A stretch of DNA of 64,000 bases, from NCBI GenBank assembly GCA_026874595.1, contig CM049306.1, positions 79,200,142 to 79,264,141 of the forward strand. Direction: 5' to 3'. The notes under the pieces are model-generated. The model had not been told where the DNA came from and did no database searches. It saw only the letters and a program-made list of their open reading frames with translations. The DNA comes from Sipunculus nudus (taxonomy: Eukaryota > Annelida > Sipuncula > Golfingiida > Sipunculidae). The translations under genes were made by a program, and so were the position numbers. Of the stretch, positions 25,001 through 59,480 are shown in pieces; within the stretch, counting starts at the first letter, position 1; each line of letters begins with the position of its first letter.

Positions 25001-28000
25001 ATTTCAGTATAATTGTATTTAATCAAGGTGAATGATTGAAACTTATGTGCTTTGACTAATTTTGAACATTTTGTTTTCATTTTCTCTCGCCAGGTGGCAG
25101 CTGGGGAGGTAGACATGGCCATAGGTGGTGACACTGGTGGCTCCATTCGTTTGCCTGCTTGTTGGAATGGGGTGGTTGGTCTGAAACCTACTTTTGGACT
25201 AGTACCTGTAACAGGCAGCATGTTAATAGAACCTACACAGGACCACTTGGGACCAATTACTAAAACTGTGCATGACTGTGCCTTAATGCTGGAGGTATGT
25301 CTCGAATTTAAATCACAAATTCTAAAAATAAAGTCTTTCTTTATATATTTATATAGTGAATTAATTTGTTATACCAAATATGCTGGCAGCGCTTTGTTCT
25401 ATAAACCATGATTTATTAAGAGTAAAACAGTCTTTTTCAAAACCCTTAATTGTGGCATTTTATTTGCAAATCAAATTCTGGTCCAAACATGATTGTATTT
25501 TGGTATCAATAGCAATATTTTTTCAAATGCTTTTAATGTTAAGTTAATTTACTCTGAAAAACATGTAAAAATTATCCTTTTTTAGTATCCTATCATATGA
25601 AATATATTATAAAAATAAAAAGTACATTTACATCCAGACACACTAGACCAGACAGCTTTTAAAAGTGTTTTCTGTATTTCTGTACTCTAACACAGGTGAT
25701 AGCTGGATATGATGAGCTTGACGGGAGACAGCATCCAGGGATCCAGGTGAAGGAGTACTCAAAGATGGTGAGCTTTCCTCATTGTATCCGCCAAAACAAA
25801 GTTTTGCGGATACTATGTTTTTGACCAGGTTCCGCCGCCACCACCGCCGCATTCGTTTCTGGAGAACAACTCTGAGACTACTGGATAGATTTTTCCGAAA
25901 CTTACACCAATTATCGGGTCACCTACATTCACATTCATGCTGCAGACATCCAAGCTCATATCTCGGGAACCATTCGACCAATAAGGAAAAAAAATTTACA
26001 TAAATGTAGCCCTTGGATAGCTTTGTAACATACACAAAAATGGTGGAGCCACCTGCAGCCATTTTTGCACAGTGTCCATCTGTTTGTCTGCCTTGGGTTA
26101 AAATCACCCATATCTCTGCAGTGGTTTGACCAAATTACCTGAAATTCGGCATGCATATACATCCCGCATAGCTTTCTTGATTTTATGACAGGTGGCGCCA
26201 CCTACATTCACATTCACGATGTAGATATTCATGCTTATATCCGGACTCATTCGACCAATCAGGAAAAACATTTTTACACAAATGTAGCCCTTGGATAGCT
26301 TTATAATATACACAAAAATGGTGGCGCCACCTGCAGCCATTTTTGCACAGTGTCTATCTGTTTGTCTGCCTTGGGTTAAAATCACCCATATCTCTGCAGT
26401 GGTTTGACCAAATTACCTGAAATTCGGCATGCATATACATCCCGCATAGCTTTCTTGATTTTATGACAGGTGGCGCCACCTACATTCACATTCACGATGT
26501 AGATATTCATGCTTATATCCGGACTCATTCGACCAATCAGGAAAAAACATTTTTACACAAATGTAGCCCTTGGATAGCTTTATAACATACACAAAAATGG
26601 TGGCGCCACCTGCAGCCATTTTTGCACAGTGTCTATCTGTTTGTCTGCCTTGGGTTAAAATCACTCATATCTCTGCAGTGGTTTGACCAAATTACCTGTA
26701 ATTCGGCATGTGTATACATCCTGGATAGATTTCTTGCTTTTATGACAGGTGGCGCCAGCTTCATTCACGTTCAAGCTGCAGACATTAATGCTTATATCTC
26801 CAGACTGGTTCGACCAATCAGAAAAAAAAATTTTACACAAATGTAGCCCTTGGATAGCTTCATAACATACACAAAAATGGTGGCGCCACCTGCAGCCATT
26901 TTTGCACAGTGTCCATCTGTTTGTCTGCTGTGGGATAAAATCACTCCTATCTTTGCAGTGGTTTGACTTTTCAACCTGAAATTTTGCATGTGTATACATC
27001 TTGGATAGTTTCTCGTTTTAATAACAGGTGGCACCACCTTCAATCATGTTTACGTGGCAGACATCCATTCTAATAAGTAACACATGTAACTCTATTTCCA
27101 CTTGCCACTCAATCCATGCCTCACTTAACCCGTCCTACTCTGATTTGGCGGATACAGTCGCTTGTCCACTACCCATATTCTAGTTTAATCCAGGACTTGA
27201 GGAATAAATCTTAATTTGCTACTTATTGCATATTCATGTTGGATTAGTAGGTCAGTATATCTGCATCACCCTATCATTAGCTGTCCACCATGTGCTTTAA
27301 TTGTTTCTGTTGAGGCACCACCTGTCTATTGGTATATATAAGAGATAAGAATACAAATCTTAAATTCACACTTCCTTTCTAACTTTGAAGCATGTATGAA
27401 TAGCCATGCTGGTTCATTGTATGTAGAAATGGAACATGAATAAACAGAAAAGGTTTGTTCACTGCTGATGGGCAGTGAACTGACTTTTCCAAGCAGTATA
27501 CTTATATTCCATCTCTGAAGGATGACATTAGCCATATTCAGCTGGTACTTTTACAAGAGTTAAATTAAGCTCCTCAACCCCTCCACAGCAACCAAGCATG
27601 GTACATGGAAATAGACCAGTTGAATGAAGTCCAGTAAAAACGTCTGCTGCTGACCATTAATGTAGCTGCAGATGGTGAAGCAACAGTTTTTTTTTTAATC
27701 TCCTGAAGTCCACATTGATCCAATCACTCAAAAAAGAAATTGAGGAGTCCATTTTTATAGGCCACCATATATATGAAAACCTTGCTTGCCTGGCAGAAAA
27801 GTTTGGTTTATTTTGGCCAGTTCCCCACAAGTTATAAGCACATTGATATAAACAAAATGAACAGCTTGTGTGTTAGATTGGCATTGTCAAGCATATATTT
27901 CAAGGGATAAATTTCCAGTTTTCTTGACATTTCAAGTCTGTCCACTCTTGAGCATGGATTACCTGAGACTGCTTTAGTTTCAAGGGATTGATTCACAGGT

Positions 28001-49681: not shown

Positions 49682-51459
49682 TCAATGCACTCTGCAAAAT
49701 TGGATAAAGACACTAGTTAAAGCATAGAGAAATAGTATTCCCGATGATGATGCTAGCCGATCAGACGATGAGACAGTTGGTCTTGTTTCTGCGGGAGGGA
49801 GAGTGAACGTGTCATACTTGTAGGTAAAATTTTGTCCAACATCTTGGAATGTACTTCCGCCGTCAAATGACACCTGTACTGGCACAGTCACACCTTCAGC
49901 GGTTGTTTGGTAACTGAATCCATCATCATCGATTAAAATGAGTTTCTGATTATATGGAGGAACCACCGCTTCTATCCGCTGGCCCGAGGATAACACTGGA
50001 GTTTCGCAAGTTATCAACTGACTTGACACAAGTGTCGTGGATGTTGAGACTCTATTCCCGAACTTACACTGCACCTTCTTGCAGATACCCCTCTCAAATC
50101 CGTGACCAAAGATGTAAACTTTGGTGGAGCCCTTTCTGCTTCCTTCACGGGGGAGTATACGTGAGAAGGATGGAGTGTTAGAGTATGTTGCTGCGCACGC
50201 GGTTGCTTTTGTCGTATTTATATACTCAGCCCAAGCGGTCTCCCATTTCGTCATTGCTGCAGCCTTGTCCTGTTCATTCATTGTGCTGTAGTTTAATGAA
50301 TTGATTGCCAGCTGTTTCATATCTGCAAGATCAAGACCCCATCCGAGGTAAGCCATGTACCAGTCAACTGTGAAGTAATCATATCCAAATGTACCCGGAT
50401 CATCGGACCCCATGACGACGGGGATCCCTGACTTAATGTAGTTGATCGCTGGGTGGTTGCGAAGATCAGCCATGAATCCAAGAATCTGGTTGCTAATGGG
50501 GCATGATTCTATGGCAACTTGTCGCTCTTTAATGAGCTTCAGTAGGTAAGGATGTTTGATATATCCGATGCCATGACCGATTCGGTTGGCTCCTAAAACC
50601 ACAGCTTCGTAGGTGTTTTCCAGGGTGGCCACAGGGTCGTTATCATACTGACTGGTGCGGAGGTCCCCAGGAAAGTTGGTCTCGCCCGTGTGTAGGTATA
50701 GGTTAATATTGCTGCGTTTGGTCGTATCATTGTAAAGAGTCAGAAAATTTTCTAAGAAGAACAAGTTGGCCCTGCCTGCGTCTTCCTCAGCTACAAGATC
50801 ATATCCTACGACCCAGTTTGGATATCTTCTATGGAACTTGATTGTCCTTTCTATATCCCTTTGCACATGGTCTATGCTTCTAAAACGTTGAGACATGGCA
50901 ATATTCCTATAGCCGATGAAGCTAGGGTTTCTCCTGGTGAAGTTTGCTATAACTTCATGTGTTAACTTGAGGTCATTGAGTGCACCTTCCTCAGCTGTGT
51001 CCAAGTATCTCTTGCCGTTAGAGCTAGCGAACGCTGGCGAGGGATCCAGAGTATACAGCACAGCATCCAAGCTGCGTCTAGCTTCCAAATACTGTACACC
51101 CTCCTCCAGGGAAAACTCTAGCATCCTCTCTATATGTTTAGTTTTAATTTTAATGTTATTAATAATCTGAACAGAACCTCGGTCCCACAAAGGGTTCATC
51201 TGCTTCCAGCGTTCCCTGCTGTTGGTTGGGTATCTTTTTGCATTATCATCCATGATTTCCATAAACACCTGCGTTTTGTAGATCTGCTCCTTGGTCAGGT
51301 TGCTGTCTTTGACCTTAATCCAGCCTTCCCCTTCAGGTGGGTTGATGAAGAAGTCTAGTTTATTCGGATGGCTGCTGTTTTTCGTCATGATGTACAGATG
51401 CTCGAAGTCTTCCGATTCCCAGACGATGTCGAGCAGGATCATCTTGCTCAGTATATGGT
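49682..51459 (-). CDS. Deaminase exon 3: catalytic core, IPT/TIG domain, tail, stop
   Basis: A single 1778-nt exon carries residues 121-712. The acceptor is CTTTTTTTTAG on the minus strand, ending at 51460. The open frame continues about 30 codons upstream of it, but that part is intron: it has no homology and the spliced join HLHE-HHILSK restores the family sequence. Confidence 0.96.
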
Positions 51460-54400
51460 CTAAAAAAAAGTTAAAAGTTAAGATATTACGCAATGTTGTT
51501 ATTTTCATGTTGTTATGTTGATATAAAATCAACCGACAATCAAACATATCCCTCTAATATCAGAAGCATCATAACAATCCCTCAAACATCAGAAGAAGCA
51601 CAATTAGATGTTTCAGAATGCAAAAGAAGGTAAAATAAAAAAACACGAAAGCAAATTAATAATTAAAAGAAAATGAGGAAAGGTTGTGGGAAAAGGACTT
51701 ATAACACAGGAGTAATAAACAAAGGAGAAATATGAATAAGAAAAACAGTTGATAATATAATTAAATTATTAGGGAGAAAATAAATGACAGAAGTAGTAAC
51801 AACGGATTCAGAACAGGTCAACATGATTCAGAGAATAGTGAATCAGTTAAGAAGGATAAACAGAAGTAATTAGAATAAAAGGTTATTGATTCTTATGAAG
51901 ACGACGATGATGATGATGATGGGCACATTTGCAGAGAGATTAGGCTAAACCAGTTTTCCACAAGTGAATAATACATTGATATGATCAATGAAAGCTAACT
52001 GATACAACATTTGAAATAACCTCACTGATAAATAATCTGCAAATTCGGCATTTTTATAATAGAAAATATTTTTAATATATAATAATGAACTCATTTTCAC
52101 ATCGTATTTATAACATGTAAAGCAGAACTGACATACGTTCGTGCAAATGCATATTCCCTCCTTTGGGCAGTTTTTTAAGTGCAGCAAACAAAGTAGAATT
52201 CAGGACGTGTGGGAGAACTTCCTCGATCGGCAGGAGAGGGGGCACTGTCGGCCGGGTCTGCATAAACTCATCCCACTTCAGGTAGCTGAGATACTGGTCC
52301 ACCGTCTTTTCGTCCTGTAAAGCCACATTCAGATACAAATCATCTACATATTTAGGTTTATTTCATAATTAAACTTTCAGAAAGTATATGATAGATATCT
52401 TAAAATATATCATCGATTTTAGATATAATATATATGTGCTCTAAGTATTTTCTTACTAAGGAAATAAAGTTTTTACATTCAAGGTTGAAAAGGTCTCCTA
52501 TTATATTCACATATGCAAGGAATAAATAAAAGATAAATTTTGATTGCTTATTGGTATAAGTATATTGTTATGAATTTATCGCAGAGATATATAGTGCAGA
52601 GAGACGGTGAGAACTGGTGTGTGCATGGAAGTGTGTGAAATTATTTTGGTTATCGTTATTGTAATCGTAATGATTTACTTTAAAAGAAATCGTAATTGTA
52701 ATCGATTACATATATCAAGTAATCATCCCATATCTGGTATATACATGTCGCGAAAATACGAAGTCAAGTTTAAAGATAAAAGACTGACATTCTTAATAAT
52801 AGTAGATCGTCTATGTTCAAAATTCCCATTATAAACTTGTATACGGGAAGTCGACAAGCGACTACGTGTATCTGCCAAAATCAAAGTAGGACGGGTGAAG
52901 TGAGGCATGGATTGAGTGGCAAGGGGAAATAAGAGTTAGATGTGTTACACATAAGCATGGATGTCTGGCACGTATACATGATTGTAGGTGGCGTCACCTG
53001 TTATTTGAATGAGAAACTATCCAAGATGTATATACATGCAAAAGTTCAGGTGGATAAGTCAAACCACTGCCGAGATTTGAGTGACTTTATCCTACAGCAA
53101 AATGGTTGCAGGTGGCGCCACCGGTTTTTTGTATGATTAAGAGCTATATGAGTTCTAAACACATGCACTAATTCAGGAAGATACGTCAACCAAGTCCGGA
53201 AATTATTATTGATATCTGCAGCATAAACATGAATATAGGTGGCGCCGTCTGTCATAAAATCAAGAAAGCTATCCAGGATGTATACGCATGCCGAATTTCA
53301 GATGAATAAGTCAAACCACTGCAGAGATATGAGTGCTTTTAACCCAAAGCAGATGAATAGATGGACGCTGTGCAAAAATGGTTGCAGGTGGCGCCACCAT
53401 TTTTGTGCATGTTATAAAGCTACGCAAGGGCTAACATTTGTGCATTTTTTTTCTCGGTTGGTCAAACGAGTCCGAGGATATGTGGGTTAATGTGTCAAAA
53501 CAGACGCACAGATGGGCGCACTGGAGAGAGGAAAGGTCAGAGGTCAACAGAAGTCAAAACTTTGTTTTGGCGGATACAATAATATCAGATCTTTTGAATT
53601 CTCTGCCATTAAAGAACAATAATTTCCACTCTTTCGATGACTTTTTGGGTTCCCGTGCAATTTTTAATATTTTGCTGATATAATTGAATGGAACATCGCG
53701 AAATTGAACCCTCAGGAAACACTGAAATTTATAAATCGCGTAATTTAACCTCGCGATTATAAAGCCAACAACAGTATATTCAACATGACAATCATAGTAA
53801 ACAAATTCCTTTACTTTGCATACTATATACCCGACAACTGGGGCGGCTCTATTTAAAGGGGGCCAGGGGGCGCGCCTCCTCTGTTTCGATATTTAAAAAA
53901 CTGGGAGAAATATAAAAAATTATGCCTAATATGTAACAGCCGCACCGGAATTATCGTTATCTTCCAAATACTTGTGCTATATCAGAAGCGGAGTCAGGGG
54001 GAGGGTCCAGGGGGTCCGAACCCCCCCCCCCCCCCCTTTTTTTTTCAGCCGCTGCAACCTTTTTTAAAAGGTTTCTGACCATTTTTCCCTGCTTGGACCT
54101 CCATCCGCTTTTCAAAACCTTAGGCTTTGTCGTGAGTCCTCTCGAGTTGGACCCCTCCTTTTCCTTAATCCTGGATCCGCCCCTGTTTATTTACCTATAA
54201 AATCTACTAGCACTCCAACACTTGATTACCTTTTTCCATTCACTACGCTTCGGCCTTTTGGAATCAGTTCGGCAGAGTATAAAGAATCGACTAAAGGCCG
54301 AAGAGTATTGAATGACCTTGTTTATTATTTAGATCTTGTTTTCGCCCCTAAATAACACTTTGATATGTAACACCAGACTCATTTTGCATTTATATCTTGA

Positions 54401-55151: not shown

Positions 55152-56342
55152 AAATAATCTTTACCCGTTCTTGGCCAAGGTATTATACTAGTACCAGTTC
55201 AATGCAAAGAACAAAAAAAAATAAATATAAGGCCAAAAAATAAAAAAAGGTATGGTTCTCAGGCACTTTTTTTCAGAAATCAGTGCGGTTGGGCGGTATT
55301 TTATTTTTGACCTTTTTTGTATATTTCGATAAAAATGCAATAAGATCAGGGAAAAGCATGAAAATAACCTTTTTTTTTTGCTAAACAGGTAAAATTACCA
55401 CATAAATTGTATAATTTATCTTCTTGAAAGATAAAAATCAAAATAAAAATGTTTGATGCGGGGGATAAAAATTGACGCGGGCGGAGCCTGAGAACCATAC
55501 CTATTATTTTTTTTGGCCTAATATTTCTATTAAACACAGCACGTTTTTTTGTTGCATGTAACTAATTCTCCCCTTGCATGTGACCAAAAAACAGCTTTAC
55601 CAGTATATGCATGAAGATAAGAAGCGTTGTATATTTCGCACTTCAAGTCACGTACTGCGCTAAACAAGGAAGGGAGTGAATAAGTGTAAATATAAGTCAG
55701 GGAACTATGTGGGACTTTTTTAGATCAGGAAAATAACATGTCATATAACCACTCCACGCTTATAATACTGTTCTCTAAGGAAGCACTGGGTTGCACCGAT
55801 TTATGCCCTTTGGACGTGTTAAAGGACTAGAATGTCTGACATACCATTATAACTAGGTCCGTTGTTCTGCAAATTCAACGTCGTTGCTCATAATTTATAT
55901 ACTTGTCTTGTGATGTACAGCTACAATAAATATTAATGCGTTTGTCTGTGTGTACGTGTATGCGCGCGTCCGTTTGCTACAACTAACAACCAAGTACCGT
56001 TATACGTTATAATAAAAGGCGTTATATTAAAGACGTTATCATTCCAAGTCTTGACAAAATCTTATATATACTGTTACTGTATACACACACATATATATAT
56101 ATTATATTATATATGTCATAATACAATATAAATTATACATTAACTACCCTATTAATTGGCAGTATTATAATTATATATAAATATTAACTTGCCGCAGACA
56201 GCTGGATTCTTTTGTGAGCGAATTCCCATTCTTCTCGTTTGAGCCATTCCCGGGCGATGGAGAACTCGTATTCGTTTTGGGGGTACCCTTCCACCAGGCC
56301 TAGCAGAGGTAGCAGCGCTACTAGCCACACGGTGGTCGCCAT
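49682..56342 (-). CDS. ADA2/ADGF-family secreted adenosine deaminase with IPT/TIG domain and C-terminal anchor, 712 aa
   Basis: Deaminates adenosine to inosine outside the cell; ADGFs act as growth or immune factors. Three exons on the minus strand: 56342-56189, 52343-52137, 51459-49682. Phases join (A|AT and C|AC), 2139 nt. Residues 1-19 are a signal peptide (MATTVWLVALLPLLGLVEG); 20-100 the ADGF N-terminal helical region; zinc ligands His117 and His119 (MHLHE); HTGE at 377-380 (catalytic Glu380); GHG with His416; SCPISNQ 439-445; GSDDP with Asp473/474. Residues about 556-676 form an IPT/TIG domain (RILPREG, VYIFGHGF, CKFG, LITCETPV, VQVSFDGGSTF, NFTYKY). A Ser/Thr/Pro linker and hydrophobic tail (694-709) follow, fitting a GPI signal. 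The usual ADGF is about 500 aa. The region after the zinc motif lacks the cysteine pair of human ADA2. The start has a strong context (A at -3, G at +4). Neighbour: amidase gene, convergent. Confidence 0.95.
52137..52343 (-). CDS. Deaminase exon 2: N-terminal helical region and first zinc motif
   Basis: Acceptor ATATGTAG, donor GTATGT. Encodes DLYLNVALQDEKTVDQYLSY and LKKLPKGGNMHLHE. The acceptor at 52344 is preferred to a TTTACAG 29 bp downstream, since only the former keeps phase with exon 1 and retains the conserved LN---EK motif. Confidence 0.93.
52836..53578 (-). mobile_element. GTATCCGCC-family element, inverted copy in deaminase intron 1
   Basis: Left end CTTGTATACGGGAAGTCG with GACAAGCGACTACGTG; right end TTTGTTTTGGCGGATACA. 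Palindromic GGTGGCGCCACC-type sites occur near 53110, 53236 and 53388. It shares with 59594-60810 the segment TGAGGCATGGATTGAGT. Confidence 0.75.
53983..54185. mobile_element. Short hAT-type MITE, second copy
   Basis: A 203-bp insert; left end CAGAAGCGGAGTCAGGGGGA is a mutated CAGTGGCGGATCC end, right end ATCCTGGATCCGCCCCTG is intact. It contains a C-run and T-run near 54018-54045. No clear duplication. Confidence 0.6.
54186..55228. other. Deaminase intron 1, with two (AT)n microsatellites
   Basis: (AT)n runs at about 54843-54904 and 55088-55144. No exon or transposon end was recognised in the rest. Confidence 0.7.
55231..55518 (+). mobile_element. PIF/Harbinger-type MITE, copy 4 (short subfamily)
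   Basis: A 288-bp copy nearly identical to 28300-28585, with GGCC inverted ends and TAA on both sides. It lies in deaminase intron 1. Confidence 0.88.
55519..56188. other. Deaminase intron 1, 5' part, nothing recognised
   Basis: AT-rich intron sequence with short TA and CA repeats near 56080-56115, ending at the exon 1 donor GTTAAT (minus strand, 56188). Confidence 0.5.
56189..56342 (-). CDS. Deaminase exon 1: start codon and signal peptide
   Basis: 154 nt encoding MATTVWLVALLPLLGLVEG followed by YPQNEYEFSIAREWLKREEW. Donor GTTAAT. It is in a different frame from the longest open frame on this strand, but supplies a signal peptide and the correct phase (A|AT) for exon 2. Confidence 0.9.
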
Positions 56343-58049: not shown

Positions 58050-58054
58050 AAATA

Positions 58055-59480
58055 TAACTAGGGACCCATGGGTCACGGCAGTGAGCTGAACTTTGTAAAG
58101 ATTTAGCAAATTGCAGAATGTACGTATTTCTAAATAATTACATATTAGCATTTTAAAAGATAAGAGGAAATCAGCTTGCTTTTTGGTGAAAATCAAATAC
58201 ATAATATATGAATGCAAGACAAATACTACATGTGCACTTTTTGGACTACATCAAAGATGCAGGAGCCTCTCATTATCAAATATTTGTAAAACTATCTACA
58301 TTTCATCTATGTGAAAGTAATATGTGTTTAAAATACCCACTGAGAACATATGAAACAATGTAAAATATAGAATAAGGAAGAAAGTGGGGAAGAGCTTTTG
58401 TATAATAATACATTTTTTAATTAATTGACTGAAATAAAATATTATAAAAATAGAATTGTACATCTTCAAATGAGCATAAACTAAATCTAATAAGAATATA
58501 TTATAATCTTTTTCATTGAATTCCTTTGAAATTTCAGTTTCCAAACGATTAAATCCTTATGTATACATGCTGTAAAAATTTAATCAACAGTGCGAAAGGG
58601 GGAAAACATGCCTTGACAAATGTTGGACACTATTTCAGAAATTGATTTTTTATTAATGCTAATAACTTAAACAAGTGACCCTCAGCTGACTAAGAAAACA
58701 TACATTCGTTCTTCAGATACTGGAGCTTTTGTAACAATTTTTTAATTATTCTGAGGGTTCATCTGACCTCCATAGCTCCGATGATATGGGTAACAGAGAC
58801 CCCATTTTAGGATTCAAAGGGAATAGTTCATGGACGTCTCTGGATGTCAAGATAGAAGATTCTAGGTCCAATGGTTACGATTTGTGCCCTATTAACTAGC
58901 GTTGAGACGGTAACCGATATCTGGGATTAACACGATATCTGACAGCTGCGATAATTGTTTCGTTAACTTCCCTGTTATCTTGATATCAAGATATGCTTTT
59001 GGTCCACAGGTTTTTAACACACACAATCTTTTTAGATTATGACATCGCCAAGGTCATTCTGTGTTCGAAAAATCATTTATTTTCAAGGATAACATTATTT
59101 TAATATGGGAATGTTCAAAATGACAGTGGTGGACAAAGTGACAGAATCCCATTCCCAGAAAACTTGCGATTTACCCGCTTATAGATAGTCGGAAATGGCA
59201 GATAGCACTTACATTTGTGATATGGAGAAAAATGCTGGACTACTCTTGTCAGATACTTATATTACGATACCATGATATATTGCGATAAATACATTCATTA
59301 TCATCCATTTCATTATCATGATATAGAAAAATGATATCATCCCAACCCTACTATTAACAGACTATCACATCTTTGAATGTCTAAAAAATTGAGGAAATGC
59401 ATAACAATTTGAAACAATGCCTACAGGCCTAATGCAAACCTGTGCATTGGGAAATACACCAGGTATAATGCTTCAATGCT
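58055..59480 (-). mobile_element. Remnants of the AGCTCAGCTGA family, inverted
   Basis: GGGACCCATGGGTCACGGCA (58061) is the reverse complement of the family's right end. Near 58860-58897 the sequence matches the left half of the copy at 38350 (reverse complement of GGGCACAAATCGTAACCG). A hAT insertion at 58898-59350 interrupts it. Outer limits are unclear. Confidence 0.5.
58898..59350. mobile_element. Non-autonomous hAT element, 453 bp, perfect duplication
   Basis: Ends TAGCGTTGAGACGGTA and ATCATCCCAACCCTA are imperfect inverted repeats of the TAGGGTTG type, flanked by a perfect 8-bp duplication CTATTAAC (58890-58897 and 59351-59358). It interrupts an AGCTCAGCTGA-family remnant. The interior is rich in GATATC and ATGATAT. 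Confidence 0.87.

Follow-up and report, generated by a model that had tools for sequence, protein, structure and literature searches.

Can a deaminase of the ADGF/ADA2 type bring its own Ig-like module and its own membrane anchor? The prevailing view of ADGFs is that they are secreted and regulate adenosine outside the cell, with roles in growth, immunity and human ADA2 deficiency, and IPT domains are found in the extracellular portions of MET, plexins and anthrax-toxin receptors. The question is raised by a gene in a 64,000-nucleotide stretch of the Sipunculus nudus genome (GenBank assembly GCA_026874595.1, contig CM049306.1, positions 79,200,142 to 79,264,141), which we call the window and whose own numbering is used below unless a contig is named. 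On the minus strand, a splice model that is itself a prediction joins three exons into a 701-residue product in which an ADGF-like deaminase is fused to an IPT/TIG domain, a linker and a hydrophobic tail. The original prediction, made from the letters alone, had put the product at 712 residues, a length that the splice model replaces.

On balance, we consider it probable that this gene encodes an ADGF/ADA2-like extracellular purine deaminase, carrying an IPT module near the membrane and held on the outer cell surface by a glycosylphosphatidylinositol (GPI) anchor. If the gene is transcribed, its putative signal peptide would bring the enzyme into the secretory pathway, and the deaminase would strip the 6-amino group off adenosine or AMP. 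Beside the membrane, the IPT/TIG domain may serve as a spacer of Ig-like type or as a module for binding, by analogy with MET, plexins and anthrax-toxin receptors. A GPI anchor would replace the C-terminal signal and so keep the enzyme at work on the outer face of the cell, from which it could not diffuse away.

Deaminase and IPT/TIG domain in one exon

Exon 3 (49682..51459, minus strand) holds the bulk of the deaminase, the TIG domain, the linker, the hydrophobic tail and the stop codon. Its Pfam matches to A_deaminase (PF00962; 81 bits, cut-off 27, E 1.1e-22) and TIG (PF01833; 34.6 bits, cut-off 20.9, E 1.9e-8) lie in the same frame, which bears out the original prediction that one exon carries both. 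The deaminase match covers positions 125-322 of the 330 in the profile and leaves the first third uncovered. The deaminase part of this exon (50177..51457, minus strand, residues 111-537) includes HTGETN at residues 366-371, GHG at 404-406 and SDDPG at 461-465; exon 2 supplies HLH at 106-108, which aligns to HLHD of human ADA2. HLH, HTGE, GHG and SDDP are zinc and catalytic motifs of the deaminase family.

The IPT/TIG domain follows at 49811..50176 (minus strand, residues 538-659). In the full product the Pfam match takes in residues 539-604 (profile 1-63 of 84); we set the end of the domain at residue 659, where the last strands of the predicted model lie. That model has a predicted local distance difference test score (pLDDT) of 76.3 and a predicted template modelling score (pTM) of 0.71, and both Foldseek and VIA comparisons match it to IPT domains, so that an IPT fold is supported as far as a predicted model allows. 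The closest known IPT/TIG domains are those of MET, plexins, EBF, CAMTA1 and ANTXR2. By sequence the likenesses are fainter: phmmer with the TIG stretch alone finds seven weak matches in the PDB, the best being a dynein heavy chain (E 0.019), with plexins at 0.74-1.2. Comparison with the TIG repeats of another gene of the same genome is also weak (hhalign probability 56, E 0.00011, 31 columns). Two clusters of many TIG domains, probably fibrocystin-like genes, are found at C14:34.86-34.89 Mb and C14:47.96-48.00 Mb.

The same fusion at two further loci

Searched against the whole genome, exon 3 has five matches: the exon itself, two paralogues at 62% identity, a third ADGF-like locus at 36% and a bacterial-type deaminase on contig C123. 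The last 176 residues alone, taken through the genome with E up to 1, find the window gene and, at 50% over 142 residues, the two paralogues, and nothing else. Paralogue A (C1:79366002-79369046) and paralogue B (C1:79376726-79379752) encode 692 residues each; they sit on the same contig as the window gene, ∼110 and 120 kb away, in opposite orientation and with the same exons. Their motif readings include HGH and HTAETN. Cysteines 569, 574 and 594 of the TIG domain are kept in both, and between paralogue B and the window gene this domain shows 54% identity.

These paralogues bear directly on whether an assembly or frame error has merged a TIG gene with a deaminase to which it is unrelated. We reject that explanation, whose probability we regard as negligible, because the two paralogues, nearly identical to each other, carry the same fusion; the in-frame joining proposed in the original prediction is thereby upheld. 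The fused frame is single and uninterrupted; across the TIG stretch both alternative frames are broken by stops, 5 in one and 10 in the other. Substitutions in the TIG part also follow the pattern of a coding exon: the proportions of nonsynonymous and synonymous change (pN/pS) between the window gene and paralogue A are 0.217/0.840 in the deaminase, 0.313/0.776 in the TIG domain and 0.541/0.893 in the tail, values of which only the direction is informative, since synonymous change is saturated.

The C-terminal end and membrane anchoring

Behind the TIG domain lies a linker of 24 residues (FTLPPAETRPTVSSSDRLASSSG; 49739..49810, minus strand, residues 660-683) with Pro, Ser, Thr and small residues, a candidate GPI attachment region. 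A hydrophobic stretch follows (ILFLYALTSVFIQFC; 49694..49738, minus strand, residues 684-698), and then only RVH and the stop codon. The arrangement is like that of GPI-anchored proteins and agrees with the original prediction of an anchor signal, with SSS and SSSG ahead of the hydrophobic residues 684-698, three residues behind them and no cytoplasmic tail. The original prediction ended the hydrophobic run four residues before the stop, which holds if Phe697 is taken as its end; the 15-mer ending at residue 698 leaves three. In paralogues A and B, four residues follow the hydrophobic 15-mer.

The tail 15-mer has a mean Kyte-Doolittle hydropathy of 2.07, the protein's maximum past residue 22. 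When the mature window protein was shuffled 20,000 times, an equally hydrophobic 15-mer turned up in the last 30 residues in 134 cases, and in 48 and 195 of 20,000 for paralogues A and B; these counts address composition and position only, come from a test picked after the tail was known, and concern paralogues that are not independent. They bear on the idea that the enzyme is soluble and secreted, with a hydrophobic end that is no anchor and a TIG domain that merely adds a module for dimerisation or matrix binding. ADGFs are indeed described as secreted in PMC10358891, and the tail sequence is weakly conserved. However, the shuffle counts argue against it, as does the fact that in each of the three proteins the top 15-mer past residue 22 sits at the very C terminus, and we hold a soluble enzyme to be quite unlikely. 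The hydropathy and the shared position thus render the C-terminal anchor signal of the original prediction plausible, if short of proven.

The tail might instead cross the membrane once, giving the same enzyme a type I topology and leaving a very short end in the cytoplasm. All three proteins have a hydrophobic stretch of ∼15 residues near the C terminus, and membrane-bound ADGFs are cited, as in the Drosophila title listed in PMC9598359. On the other hand, a membrane span would normally be longer than this segment, just three to four residues lie past it, and the window protein has no basic cluster there beyond one Arg and one His. A type I protein is therefore unlikely in our estimation, and GPI anchoring remains the preferred reading of this end.

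Several observations weigh against a GPI-anchored, ADGF-like fusion enzyme. The tail is only 18% identical over 34 codons, and that of paralogue B has an Arg inside it. The TIG domain of each paralogue scores 14.5 bits, below the Pfam cut-off. As paralogues A and B are nearly identical to each other, they amount to about one independent witness. The whole exon 3 model is poor (pLDDT 40.6), so the deaminase fold has to rest on sequence; no deaminase is among the best 50 Foldseek matches of this model, which says little, as most of the deaminase part has a pLDDT below 50. On the family side, the product scores under the curated cut-off of the ADGF model TIGR01431 (254.9 against 315 bits), and PF08451, which we take to be the N-terminal ADGF domain, is absent from the Pfam matches of the full product up to E 10. 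Finally, the zinc motif is followed by Glu109, where the Aplysia chimera and the Helix and human enzymes have Asp, and substrate handling may therefore differ.

Family placement and substrate

Even so, TIGR01431 is the best NCBIfam model for the full product (profile 9-477 of 479), far ahead of TIGR01430 at 87.2 bits, and TIGR01429 (AMPD) gives 35 bits with exon 3, which places the product nearer to ADGF than to either ADA1 or AMPD. Paralogue A scores 243.6 bits on TIGR01431 (profile 19-477 of 479). Among solved structures, phmmer with the full product ranks an Aplysia ADGF chimera first (PDB 9nti; 166.9 bits, residues 46-526), then the ADGF-type AMP deaminase of Helix pomatia (PDB 9nte; 164.3 bits, residues 12-526) and human ADA2 (PDB 3lgd; 146.7 bits, residues 43-525). 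Residues 46-110 align to all three chains, despite the absent N-terminal domain match. Because TIGR01431 falls under its 315-bit cut-off, we file the window product, by sequence, as a divergent branch of ADGF-like enzymes and not as a full ADGF member.

With the ADGF/ADA2 family (Aplysia AGSA/MDGF, human ADA2 and abalone MLGF) it shares a signal-like start, the HLH zinc motif, HxGE, GHG and SDDP; to these it adds an IPT/TIG domain of ∼120 residues and a hydrophobic tail. Its 701 residues compare with 521 in abalone MLGF, as given in PMC9598359. The open reading frame of the Helix enzyme is 536 residues (PMC10358891), which leaves no room for a TIG-tail extension.

The original prediction spoke of adenosine removal. 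This was an assumption, as the snail (Helix) ADGF prefers AMP as its substrate according to PMC10358891. It is possible, though we would not bet on it, that the window enzyme is an AMP-preferring or otherwise altered deaminase rather than an adenosine deaminase, which would be compatible with any reading of the anchoring. Its two best PDB matches include this AMP-preferring enzyme beside the Aplysia chimera, exon 3 also matches PF19326 (AMP_deaminase; 31.5 bits, cut-off 27), and the zinc motif reads HLHE where the Helix enzyme has HLHD. However, the scores to the Aplysia and Helix proteins are nearly equal, and the Glu does not point to AMP, because both of those proteins keep the Asp.

ADGFs in the genome and at the cell surface

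A PF00962 profile search of the genome finds at least 14 places: the window gene, the two paralogues, the third ADGF-like locus, the C123 gene and nine on contigs C5 and C8. These counts are lower bounds, and a conventional multi-exon ADGF may be missed among them. Three of the C5 loci were read (L005-L007); we take them to be ADA1-like by their motifs, and for this reason do not count them as further ADGFs. The third ADGF-like locus (C1:53394648-53396684) apparently has the same boundary between exons 2 and 3, and its match stops at residue 431 of the exon 3 query, which has 592 residues. Its deaminase part is interrupted midway by an in-frame stop and has ADA for the catalytic SDD, and the locus looks, from its sequence, decayed or non-catalytic; tblastn finds no match to the TIG part within ∼10 kb downstream. 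The intact ADGF-type genes found in this genome, the window gene and paralogues A and B, thus all carry TIG domain and tail, and three is a lower bound for their number.

If true, the existence in nature of an ADGF that brings both an Ig-like module and its own anchor would show that purine removal can be confined to the surface of cells, and it would allow a convenient test of how localisation affects the function of ADGFs. More speculatively, and in our judgement rather unlikely, such proteins could form a new class of surface-tethered ADGFs, in which the TIG domain docks to a partner, either on the same cell or on a neighbour, and adenosine or AMP is removed in juxtacrine fashion only at chosen contacts; on this reading, all three intact genes found being of the tethered type, the organism may have replaced a diffusible ADGF by a tethered one. 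A membrane-bound relative of ADGFs is the Drosophila male-specific IDGF (MSI), in which we know of no TIG domain. A title cited in PMC9598359 calls MSI a membrane-bound extracellular signalling molecule, and that 2022 abalone paper also names 'secretory or transmembrane-type ADGFs', so the original prediction was too broad in describing known ADGFs as soluble. Two passages of PMC3055890 have nothing on membrane-bound ADGFs. A fusion of a deaminase with a TIG/IPT domain was not found in the literature, judged by the titles listed in a limited search with subscription journals mostly outside it; within that coverage, the original prediction's remark that no ADGF of this type had been described agrees.

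Exons 1 and 2

Comparison with paralogue loci A and B, which share the contig, confirms exons 1 and 2. Exon 1 (56193..56342, minus strand, residues 1-50) has the start codon, a signal-like peptide and an N-terminal segment, and is 46.7% identical across 45 residues to either paralogue locus in a translated comparison. The signal-like peptide occupies approximately residues 1-19 (MATTVWLVALLPLLGLVEG; cleavage site placed by eye), with an N-terminal 15-mer hydropathy of 2.19. Exon 2 (52137..52314, minus strand) encodes the N-terminal deaminase part, with the HLH motif after PKGG; it is 71.6% identical to both paralogues by blastn, and its splice sites were identified. The exon 1 donor at 56193 is a GC site (GCG|GCAAGT) of a GC-AG intron, where both paralogues have CCG|GTACGT at the same position. 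A GT donor four bases further on was ruled out because exon 2 would fall out of frame.

Two other candidates for upstream exons were discarded. Positions 58225-58052 lie in a frame that is open in the window (58250-58014), but the corresponding paralogue frames carry stops, and this stretch was dropped as exon 1 because the translated comparison placed exon 1 at 56342. Short matches at ∼55.2-55.5 kb have no fitting frame and align outside the paralogues' genes. The stretch of ∼180 bases at 58052-58225 is 69-70% alike at C1:79364948-79365131 and C1:79375683-79375862, upstream of both paralogues as it is of the window gene, and is probably non-coding, a promoter remnant or a repeat.

Other loci

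Prokaryote genome scans gave 125 and 22 pattern-matching stretches and a viral contig scan gave 20, with no relatives among them; these collections are not known to be intended for animal genomes. The deaminase gene on C123 (C123:42481-43440) is an intact bacterial-type adenosine deaminase with a 342-residue frame and 270.9 bits. Neighbouring frames are presumably a bacterial-looking transporter and a HemN-like protein, and the contig looks like that of a bacterial contaminant or symbiont. Within the window, an exon of an amidase-signature gene (PF01425, 92 bits) lies on the plus strand at 25040-25408.
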